Positions 11,600 to 30,531 of a DNA stretch of 32,379 nucleotides are shown piece after piece. Each line of letters starts with the position of its first letter. Positions within the stretch are counted from its first letter, which is position 1. Position numbers and translations under genes: made by a program. Origin of the DNA: Candidatus Tayloriibacteriota bacterium (GTDB lineage Bacteria; Patescibacteriota; Minisyncoccia; Phycocordibacterales; CAIRYW01); NCBI GenBank assembly GCA_028286725.1, contig JAQBQZ010000001.1, positions 1 through 32,379 of the forward strand, in the 5' to 3' direction. The notes below the pieces were generated by a model that was not told the origin of the DNA, did not search any database, and saw nothing but the letters and a program-made list of their open reading frames with translations.

Positions 11600-12316
11600 T
11601 TATATTTTCAAAACCCACCTCTCAAGTTCTGTTTCAAAATTTACTTGTCCTCGATGAGCTTTGTGATACATATCAATGAGGCTTGATATTGCATTATTTA
11701 ATTCCTGCTCTTCCCAATTTCGAGAGAATGATTTTGCCTTGCTGTAGACATAGGGATTCAATCCCGCCTCGTCTGCACCTTTTGTTTTCTTTGCAAGAAG
11801 GATTGATTTCATCTGCCAGAATATTGTTCCATGAAGTTCTTCATCGGCAGTACCGTTATCGAGCTCACTTCGCAAGAGCACCCACGCATTCTTTTTGTCT
11901 TTGTCCCCTATCGCATCAGTCATCTTGAAAATGCTTGGGAATTTCTTTTCGGCTTTTTGTTTGACTCCGAATTCTTCCACCTTCTCTGCGTACTTTTTTA
12001 TTTTCTCAAGCGGTGCTTTGTTTACTTCACCTTCTGACCAAACAATAATATTCTCCGTCGCTTTCATTTCTTTGAGGAATTTTTGTATCATCTCTCCTTT
12101 TTCTTTATCGTCCAAAATGTCAGCAATCTTCGCGACAACCTTTCGTTCAAAAAGTCCTTGAGAAGCCGTGATCTCCTGGAGTACATTTTCGTCAATATTT
12201 TCTACACCAAAAGAAACAAAGCTCGCATCTGGCTTTTTCTTCTGCAACGCATCAAAAGTTGCTCGTGCAGTCTTTTGAATCTTTTCTCTGTCTGTTCCGT
12301 AATAAAAAAATATCAT
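11600..12316 (-). CDS. holA: DNA polymerase III delta subunit (clamp loader)
   Basis: 238-residue clamp-loader subunit that would open the DnaN ring (dnaN is at 25464). It begins MIFFYYGTDREKIQKTARAT, the HolA N-terminal pattern in which the P-loop is degenerate, and continues with LQEITASQGLFERKVVAKIA, ENIIVWSEGEVNK and the C-terminal collar helices (GTIFWQMKSILLAKKT, ISSLIDMYHKAHRGQVNFE). It is about 100 residues shorter than E. coli delta, as is common in CPR. The ATG follows the 3' end of structured element A by 4 nt; AGG at 12321-12323 on minus is the only Shine-Dalgarno-like sequence and lies in the base stem. Confidence 0.82.
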   Translation of the reverse strand: MIFFYYGTDREKIQKTARATFDALQKKKPDASFVSFGVENIDENVLQEITASQGLFERKVVAKIADILDDKEKGEMIQKFLKEMKATENIIVWSEGEVNKAPLEKIKKYAEKVEEFGVKQKAEKKFPSIFKMTDAIGDKDKKNAWVLLRSELDNGTADEELHGTIFWQMKSILLAKKTKGADEAGLNPYVYSKAKSFSRNWEEQELNNAISSLIDMYHKAHRGQVNFETELERWVLKI

Positions 12317-12320
12317 TTAT

Positions 12321-12539
12321 CCTAGAAAGTTTTATCCATTAAAGGCTTAATAGTAAGCATATTATGCTATAAATTAATGTTAAATTTAAGTATAGAGTTA
12401 TTGATGTTATTTGTCGAACAGCCTTTTTGTTATGCAACAGTGGTGATTAAAACATAAATATTACAAACTCTTCTCCATGTACAAATTAATCCATTCGCTA
12501 TTAAGGGCGGTTGCATAACGATGGATAAAATTTTAGAGG
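12321..12539 (-). ncRNA. Structured intergenic element, copy A (candidate cis-regulatory RNA)
   Basis: Fills the polA-holA gap. Plus-strand coordinates of the pairings: P1 12321-12339 with 12521-12539 (19 nt, mismatches at three positions), P2 12429-12438 with 12510-12519 (perfect GTTATGCAAC/GTTGCATAAC), P3 AAAGGCT 12341-12347 with 12420-12426. One nucleotide joins P1-P3 and one joins P2-P1, giving a tight three-way junction. Copy B (24675-24875) shares the ends, the AAAAAG joint and the P2 sequence, while stems covary. Read on minus it starts just after the polA stop and ends in CTAGG four nt before the holA ATG, so P1 would mask the Shine-Dalgarno. Function unknown. Confidence 0.65.
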
Positions 12540-12545
12540 ATGAAT

Positions 12546-20480: not shown

Positions 20481-20489
20481 TAAACAAAT

Positions 20490-20546
20490 AAAAACTCTTA
20501 ACAAAATACAGCGCCCTTCGGGCGCTGTATTTTGTTAAGAGTTTTT
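20490..20546. terminator. Bidirectional terminator, 27-bp perfect stem
   Basis: Arms 20490-20516 and 20520-20546 are exact reverse complements with a TTC loop. They sit between the acidic-protein stop and the tyrS stop. The core ACAAAATACAGCGC is identical to the terminator at 30477-30531. Confidence 0.92.
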
Positions 20547-20554
20547 ATTGTAGC

Positions 20555-24412: not shown

Positions 24413-24670
24413 CTACCTTATATCACCCACCTTAAATCCCTTTTCTTTCAAAGTTGTAAGAATCATTTCTTTTCTCATAAAAATCTCAGTCTTCATATAC
24501 CCCGAAACATTAATATATAAAATATCAATTTTCAGATCAACTGTTTCAAACGGAATTTCAAACCCAGAGCACTCTGTGAGAGTCGCTACAAGCCTCTCCC
24601 TCTCTTCTCGAGGGTTCTTAAGATGGCGAAATTTCTCTAAAAGAGATGAAAGTGAGGATAGGTTGTACAT
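24413..24670 (-). CDS. Small DUF721-like protein
   Basis: 85-residue protein: helical N-terminus (SSLLEKFRHLKNPREERERL), then ECSGFEIPFETVDLKIDILY and VSGYMKTEIFMRKEMILTTL. The pattern of a short helix, a KxxxLYIxVSGxxKTEIFxRKxxIL strand-helix and a closing LKEKGFKV resembles short DUF721/DciA-like proteins found next to replication genes in CPR genomes. DciA is a DnaB helicase loader; this relation is tentative. The ATG lies 4 nt after structured element B, whose AGG is the only Shine-Dalgarno-like sequence. Confidence 0.55.
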   Translation of the reverse strand: MYNLSSLSSLLEKFRHLKNPREERERLVATLTECSGFEIPFETVDLKIDILYINVSGYMKTEIFMRKEMILTTLKEKGFKVGDIR

Positions 24671-24674
24671 TTGC

Positions 24675-24875
24675 CCTAGAAAATTTTAGCTGTTAAAAAG
24701 TCGATTGATTTACACCACAACATTGATATCCTGCCCCAATAATAAGCCTAGCAATTTAATTTTATCACAAAACTGAATCGACTTTTTGTTATGCAATATT
24801 AAACACGTAAATTCACACCAACCTTACATTGCGATACGAATACATATTACATAACGACAGCTAAAACTTTAGAGG
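24675..24875 (-). ncRNA. Structured intergenic element, copy B (candidate cis-regulatory RNA)
   Basis: Same architecture as copy A at 12321-12539. P1 24675-24693 with 24857-24875, P2 24788-24797 with 24846-24855 (one C-A mismatch), P3 24695-24706 with 24776-24787 (perfect 12 bp). Junction nucleotides match copy A: one base P1-P3, one base P2-P1. P1 differs from copy A at three positions, each compensated on the partner strand. On minus it begins shortly after the CYTH-gene stop and ends CTAGGGCAA-ATG at the DUF721-like gene. Confidence 0.65.
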
Positions 24876-24887
24876 GTGAATTTAAAA

Positions 24888-30011: not shown

Positions 30012-30479
30012 ATGGAAGATATTAAAGAAATCACAAAATCTCTCATAGATATGCTCGGTGTAGTCGAGACTACGATTGAGATTGTGGATCACAATGGCGG
30101 ATTTCTTATAAATATAAAATCTCCTGAAGAATATTCTCTTATTGGCCGAGAAAATGAGAAGTTTGAAGCGTTTTCTCATCTTGTTAAGAGAATGGTAGCA
30201 AAGAAGCGTGGTGAAGAGGTTCGAATCATAGTAGACATAAATGGTGTGAGGGCACAGAATGACGAACTTATAAAAAGTAAAGCAGCTATGCTTGCAGAGC
30301 GAGCACGGTCGTTCAAGATTGATGTTGAGATGGATCCGATGACCTCTTATGAACGAATGCTTGTCCATTCTCACTTAGAAGGACGACCGAATATAAAGAC
30401 TGAATCGATTGGTGAGGGAAAAGAAAGAAAGCTTGTGATTAGATTTGTAGAGGACATTGCTTCAGAGGATAAAATATAA
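30012..30479 (+). CDS. jag: RNA-binding KH/R3H protein Jag (KhpB)
   Basis: 155-residue RNA-binding protein, the usual partner gene of yidC (SpoIIIJ-associated protein; KhpB in pneumococcus, involved in cell elongation and sRNA binding). A KH-like domain covers about 1-80 (DMLGVVETTIEIVDHNGGFL, REVDINGVRAQ region), and a C-terminal R3H domain has ERMLVHSHLEGRPNIKTES and GEGKERKLVIRF. It lacks the N-terminal Jag_N domain seen in longer homologues. TAATAT ends 7 nt before the ATG. The stop codon lies in the 26-bp arm of the following terminator. Confidence 0.9.
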   Translation: MEDIKEITKSLIDMLGVVETTIEIVDHNGGFLINIKSPEEYSLIGRENEKFEAFSHLVKRMVAKKRGEEVRIIVDINGVRAQNDELIKSKAAMLAERARSFKIDVEMDPMTSYERMLVHSHLEGRPNIKTESIGEGKERKLVIRFVEDIASEDKI

Positions 30480-30531
30480 ATAAAACAAAATACAGCGCAC
30501 CCGAAGGGTGCGCTGTATTTTGTTTTATTTA
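30477..30531. terminator. Bidirectional terminator, 26-bp perfect stem
   Basis: Arms 30477-30502 and 30506-30531 are exact reverse complements with a GAA loop. It runs from the jag stop codon to the stop codon of the convergent gene, and its core ACAAAATACAGCGC is the same as in the 20490-20546 terminator. Confidence 0.93.

Follow-up and report, generated by a model that had tools for sequence, protein, structure and literature searches.

Two short repeats preceding start codons in a Candidatus Tayloriibacteriota genome as probable members of a GIY-YIG-linked inverted-repeat element family

The window analysed here, that is, the whole stretch of 32,379 nucleotides from a Candidatus Tayloriibacteriota genome (905,920 bp, or 0.9 Mb, in 14 contigs), contains two structured intergenic sequences, referred to as copies A and B, each of which ends on a Shine-Dalgarno (SD)-like motif ahead of a start codon. 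This raises the question of whether they are leaders controlling the genes that follow them, as proposed in an initial annotation of this DNA, or whether they are of a different nature. On the basis of the data discussed below, we suggest that A and B very likely belong to a family of elements bounded by terminal inverted repeats (TIRs) and linked to a GIY-YIG nuclease, which targets start sites and one end of which doubles as a Shine-Dalgarno sequence. According to this idea, the two copies would be short non-coding (MITE-like) derivatives of very small mobile elements, whose full form would consist of the TIRs and one gene coding for a single-domain GIY-YIG nuclease.

The two copies and their family

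Copy A (12317-12545, minus strand) is a short non-coding element located between polA and holA, which in several relatives are adjacent, with a small gap or none at this site. Its left TIR (ATTCATCCTCTAAAATTTTATCCAT) spans positions 12521-12545 and its right TIR (ATGGATAAAACTTTCTAGGATAA) positions 12317-12339, directly before the ATG of holA (DNA polymerase III delta; 11600-12316, minus strand; Pfam PF21694); the SD-like AGG is at 12321-12323. Copy B (24671-24881, minus strand), also short and non-coding, sits between an upstream CYTH-domain gene and a downstream small ORF of 85 aa (24413-24670, minus strand). Its left TIR (24857-24881, ATTCACCCTCTAAAGTTTTAGCTGT) represents the 5' strand of the stem P1 and its right TIR (24671-24693) the 3' strand, which terminates with CTAGGGCAA directly before the ATG; these are followed inwards by the hairpins P2 (24787-24856, CGTTATGTAATATG...AATATTGCATAACA) and P3 (24695-24787, AAAAAGTCGATT...AATCGACTTTTT), the latter covarying among copies, and the SD-like AGG is at 24675-24677. 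The initial annotation had correctly read, on the minus strand, CTAGG, four nucleotides and ATG in both copies (CTAGG-ATAA-ATG in A, with the ATG at 12314-12316, and CTAGG-GCAA-ATG in B, with the ATG at 24668-24670), as well as a P1 5' strand beginning with CCTCTAAA. The statement that this strand directly follows the stop of the upstream gene holds for A, which starts a few nucleotides past the polA stop, and only loosely for B, where the distance from the stop of the CYTH gene is about 13 nt. The "DUF721-like" gene downstream of B has no family match in Pfam or NCBIfam. The scarcity of SD sequences elsewhere in the window was also borne out, an SD-like 4-mer preceding only 2 of the 28 ORFs of at least 130 aa, one of which is holA itself, behind copy A.

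The right end of the family matched 14 sites genome-wide (up to 3 mismatches in 21 nt), the reversed control pattern none, and 13 of the 14 ends directly precede an ATG. The exception (L208, C5:83213-83400) is situated between two convergent genes, and its P2 and P3 are inverted relative to the ends; the gene next to it appears to obtain its stop codon from the left end of this copy. In another copy (L019, G000:C9:174340-174584), the left end is missing, whereas P2 and P3 are retained together with a right end that precedes an ATG. The copies at C6:11684 and C12:62569 each measure 295 bp and harbor an intact ORF of 84 codons, starting inside P2, on the strand corresponding to P2 of copy B, and stopping inside P3/P1; both ORFs encode a GIY-YIG domain (Pfam PF01541, E-values 2e-11 and 2e-13). 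The short copies, A and B included, share the same ends and the same P2 and P3 with these coding copies; they are about 210-240 bp long (mostly 225-240 bp) and embed no ORF, and in most of them the P3 loop has been shortened to a similar length.

This organization is not restricted to the source genome. Close relatives of the nuclease were found in 46 of the 297 genomes of the order (E <= 1e-20), and more than 500 relatives were retrieved from GTDB genomes; the best 80 of these belong mainly to Patescibacteria and also to Omnitrophota, Planctomycetes, Verrucomicrobia, Desulfobacteria and others. No relatives of the protein were found in the viral contigs searched. In about 70 genomes (Patescibacteria, Omnitrophota, Planctomycetes and others), the related genes are bounded by TIRs of the form TTYACCC.../...GGGTRAA, with the consensus ends TTYACCCYGTTARATA.../...TATYTAACGGGGTRAA (TTCAYCCTCTAAAG.../...TTTTCTAGGRTAA in the source genome), and in an automatic test the TIRs of most of about 100 related loci, distributed over many phyla, scored better than 60 out of 60 shuffled sequences. 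In the sister genus G001, where one decayed coding copy and two short copies were found, P2 of the short copies is unrelated in sequence and still forms a proper hairpin, which indicates that the fold is kept while the sequence changes.

The comparison of related species also points to mobility. In G010, an element precedes an htpX-like gene and its congener G093 has none there; conversely, G093 possesses a copy, 78% identical to that of G010, before a dnaX-like gene, a place where G010 and G191 have no element (both gene names were read off translations). At one site in another genus, a full element (G194), a roughly 78-bp deletion form (G276) and no element at all (G297) were found. Judged from these sequences, presence and absence at three loci between congeneric species shows gain or loss of the element. 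The loci L199-L206 of G093 also revealed a second, unrelated palindrome family (AACATTATTTAAgATAGCTATAGCTATcTTAAATAATGTT), with five or more occurrences in this genome.

Position of the elements relative to start codons

The link between the element end and a start codon, noticed in the two copies, extends well beyond the window. When ORFs of at least 60 codons were considered, 56 of 86 elements had a co-oriented start codon no more than 15 nt from their right end (ATG in 51 of these 56), against 8 of 86 for the left end and the opposite strand, random positions giving 14%; the 86 elements are not independent draws, since they are related to each other and were selected for having TIRs. The claim that the end supplies an SD paired in the full-length RNA also holds outside the window. 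The initial annotation had set mobile-element boundaries and target duplications, or a placement without relation to start codons, against its own regulatory reading: the homologues are mobile elements, some of them showing target duplications and matched by empty sites in sister species, but they are closely placed relative to start codons.

Part of this placement is exact, the spacing GGGTAA-ATG being found at 26 right ends and the overlapping GGGATGA at another 8. In the CCCGTTAGAG class, ATGAR direct repeats occur on both sides of the element at about six loci, several of which lie 6-9 nt downstream of a -10 box; about half of the loci of this class have no clear duplication. A global scan of 70 elements revealed no convincing duplication offset, and no target duplication was detectable in the subclass containing A and B. 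Considering all the elements, -10-like hexamers accumulate just to the left of the insertion, with 27 in the adjacent 15-nt bin vs. 8.7 per bin further upstream, an excess that is in truth smaller, since about nine of the 27 use the T of the TIR itself. The empty sites read TATACTTTTCTT-ATG, TATACTATTTCT-ATG and TATAATATTCTTCTA-ATG, and the gap between -10 box and ATG is of only 6-9 nt. Such a spacing would suit leaderless genes, and we infer that the start site of these genes is the insertion target.

One might argue that the bias reflects selection only, that is, that the elements insert at random and survive only before those genes for which their end offers a ribosome binding site. This explanation, which we regard as possible and rather doubtful, takes advantage of the fact that these genomes are gene-dense, so that insertions inside genes would be lost, and of the resemblance between the element ends and SD sequences. 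On the other hand, it does not readily account for the 26 right ends of exact spacing and the 8 overlapping ones, for the lack of any such bias at the left ends, for a start-codon duplication that puts the cut in the first codons, or for the short gap at the empty sites. Part of the start-codon bias may nevertheless come from the selective retention of insertions at harmless positions.

We therefore retain targeting of start sites as the preferred reading, according to which insertion would occur at host gene starts, often just past the -10 box, where the start codon is likely also the transcription start (leaderless genes). The right end, ...(A)GGGTAA or ...GGGA, would abut or restore the start codon and provide a Shine-Dalgarno sequence, so that the host gene would stay expressible; some short copies would in addition contribute a -10-like box located about 40 nt ahead of the SD. 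The recognised feature might be melted DNA or the start-site sequence, and the element ends might act as a working ribosome binding site or promoter. A further possibility, a start-codon capture by which the GIY-YIG ORF would be read from the duplicated host ATG, was considered and rejected as a general mechanism, since the ORF is in frame in L102, L160, L189 and L223 and out of frame in L221 and L224.

Stems, access to the Shine-Dalgarno sequence and possible use by the host

Folding predictions assign to both copies a three-way junction, with P1 formed by the two ends and followed by P2 and P3. Compared to dinucleotide shuffles, the fold of copy B has a z-score of -5.2 (0 of 200 shuffles as stable) and that of copy A of -3.0 (1 of 200). 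The expectation that P1 pairing would hide the AGG agrees with these predictions, the last four nucleotides of the SD being unpaired with a probability of about 0.01 in the full-length RNA.

These structures give room to the idea that the short copies, although mobile in origin, have been co-opted by the host as cis-regulatory leaders and are now kept for the control of the downstream gene, P1 masking the SD when transcription reads through the element, and exposure depending either on a promoter inside the element or on a factor bound to it. We consider this tentative and rather doubtful. In its favour, the stems of the short copies are 93% identical while their loops are at chance identity (i.e., that of shuffled sequence), and compensatory changes among copies affect 61 of 65 pairs in P3 (0 of 20,000 permutations; anchored count). 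Since loops have diverged to this extent while stems have not, the short copies look old, and stems preserved in old copies imply a continuing constraint that mobility alone does not plainly explain. Moreover, six copies of the source genome have a -10-like box at nearly the same distance (39-43 nt) before the SD, and for a leader whose transcription starts past this box the predicted access to the SD rises from about 0.01 to about 0.5 on average, since such a transcript would be devoid of the P1 5' strand.

Other data are less easily reconciled with co-option. The clustered -10 boxes occur in fewer than half of the copies, and coding elements of distant phyla carry the same kind of ends. The right ends are SD-like in almost all classes (AGGA, AGGG, GGAGG, GGGG), where "SD" means likeness in sequence, the exact 16S-tail pattern being unmatched in the source assembly and uninformative either way; the pairing of the SD may be a by-product, since TIRs pair by construction. 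Furthermore, the genes behind the copies of the source genome have no common function: besides those mentioned above, they include ComM/Mg-chelatase-like and homoserine dehydrogenase-like genes, GuaA, FtsA, riboflavin synthase, an MFS transporter, PLD, UppP, a PIF1 helicase and a methyltransferase. The link to replication that the initial annotation had considered possible for the two downstream genes is thus not recovered among the genes behind the other copies. The constraint on the stems might derive either from the renewal of the family by continued movement or from host use of the structure; a local effect on the translation of the downstream gene, and with it some regulation of host genes by the element, is possible.

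The nuclease and comparison with known systems

A remaining question concerns the enzyme moving these elements. We propose that the GIY-YIG protein would carry out the cutting and would mobilise the short copies in trans. Its Pfam match exceeds the cut-off, its core (YVYIL...LYIG) has the catalytic Arg and Glu (R26 and E50) invariant in the alignments, and a weak match to 1zg2 (UPF0213) was found. It is less probable, and on the whole unlikely, that the GIY-YIG genes are hitchhikers in TIR elements moved by another enzyme (e.g., a resident transposase) or copied by replication slippage at palindromes. Such a scenario would fit the prevalence of non-coding copies in the source genome, which has only two close GIY-YIG genes, and palindromes can be copied by several routes; catalysis by the nuclease is itself putative. 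However, a single-domain GIY-YIG ORF of 84-90 aa is the sole ORF between the TIRs in many phyla, and the length of the coding elements is nearly constant (mostly 263-310 bp). The two coding copies differ with a dN of 0.15 and a dS of about 1.06, which reveals purifying selection on the protein, and in the CCCGTTAGAG class the right (3') TIR encodes the C-terminus of the nuclease itself (...FLSLTG*). No gene for a DDE, HUH or serine/tyrosine transposase was found between the ends, where PF01541 was the only ORF.

The family shares features with several known systems. Similarly to MITEs, the short copies are non-coding, TIR-bounded, dispersed and apparently derived by internal deletion from a longer, putatively autonomous relative with the same ends (C6:11684 and C12:62569); unlike MITEs, this relative codes for a GIY-YIG nuclease instead of a DDE transposase, the placement at start codons is oriented, and the internal hairpins P2 and P3 are conserved. 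In REP/REPIN sequences and their RAYTs (REP-associated tyrosine transposases), structured repeats between genes are likewise accompanied by a few copies of a gene for a small cognate nuclease, but the RAYT is an HUH/Y1 enzyme; to our knowledge, REPs do not sit at start codons and provide them with an SD. TIR-only hairpins exist here too: TTCACCCCGTTAGATA-cgaag-TTATCTAATGGGGTGAA and similar hairpins, which seem to be minimal, REP-like forms derived from the family ends, either flank or enclose coding elements at L137, L105 and L106. Free-standing and intron-encoded GIY-YIG homing endonucleases (Seg, I-TevI) belong to the same nuclease superfamily and are mobile; they are copied into the cognate allele via flanking homology, whereas the present family occupies many unrelated sites, has TIRs and lacks any domain beyond the catalytic one. 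Rfam models detected no group I or group II intron core in the element. GIY-YIG genes have also been reported in insertions of CPR rRNA genes; these insertions were described as distinct from group I and group II introns and as apparently not relying on homing for their spread, and no mention of TIRs, non-coding derivatives or placement at start codons was found (PMC11270868). Translational riboswitches and RNA thermometers resemble the short copies in having the SD paired in the full-length RNA; here, however, the pairing comes from the TIRs, and neither a conserved ligand core nor a core conserved across genomes upstream of related genes was found. Rfam searches at gathering and relaxed thresholds returned nothing relevant, the matches being tRNAs and a single chance match. 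Control of a replication regulon by a riboswitch, a thermosensor or a leader that binds a protein, as the initial annotation proposed, is therefore very improbable despite the stable three-way junction and the SD at the 3' end of P1, since the genes behind the copies are unrelated and known RNA families unmatched, and it sits badly with TIR-bounded relatives encoding GIY-YIG nucleases, with empty sites and with the unrelated P2 sequence of the sister genus.

GIY-YIG genes that are small and stand alone abound in many uncultured bacteria with no role assigned to them; many of them can now be tested as mobile elements, since they are found between inverted repeats at gene starts. No earlier description of TIR-bounded GIY-YIG elements was found in the open-access papers searched. 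We give about even chances to the broader idea of a new class of transposable elements of about 280 bp, in which a stand-alone GIY-YIG nuclease would recognise leaderless start sites, duplicate the start codon and give it back to the host along with an SD, the short derivatives spreading promoter/RBS cassettes in reduced genomes. If so, the element would be among the smallest that would be autonomous, and it would illustrate how leaderless, SD-poor genomes can gain Shine-Dalgarno sites and promoters via insertion. If the nuclease alone moves elements of less than 300 bp, it would represent a transposition enzyme of an unlisted kind; we know of no GIY-YIG enzyme among the known bacterial transposases.

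Two minor observations concern neighbouring sequences. At L185, a related GIY-YIG gene has a tRNA-like sequence (GGCTGAGTAGCTCAGTTGGTTAG) on either side, which suggests a relative associated with tRNAs. Within the window, positions 20487-20549 and 30477-30531 form two perfect hairpins having ACAAAATACAGCGC in common, possibly terminators or another dispersed hairpin repeat.
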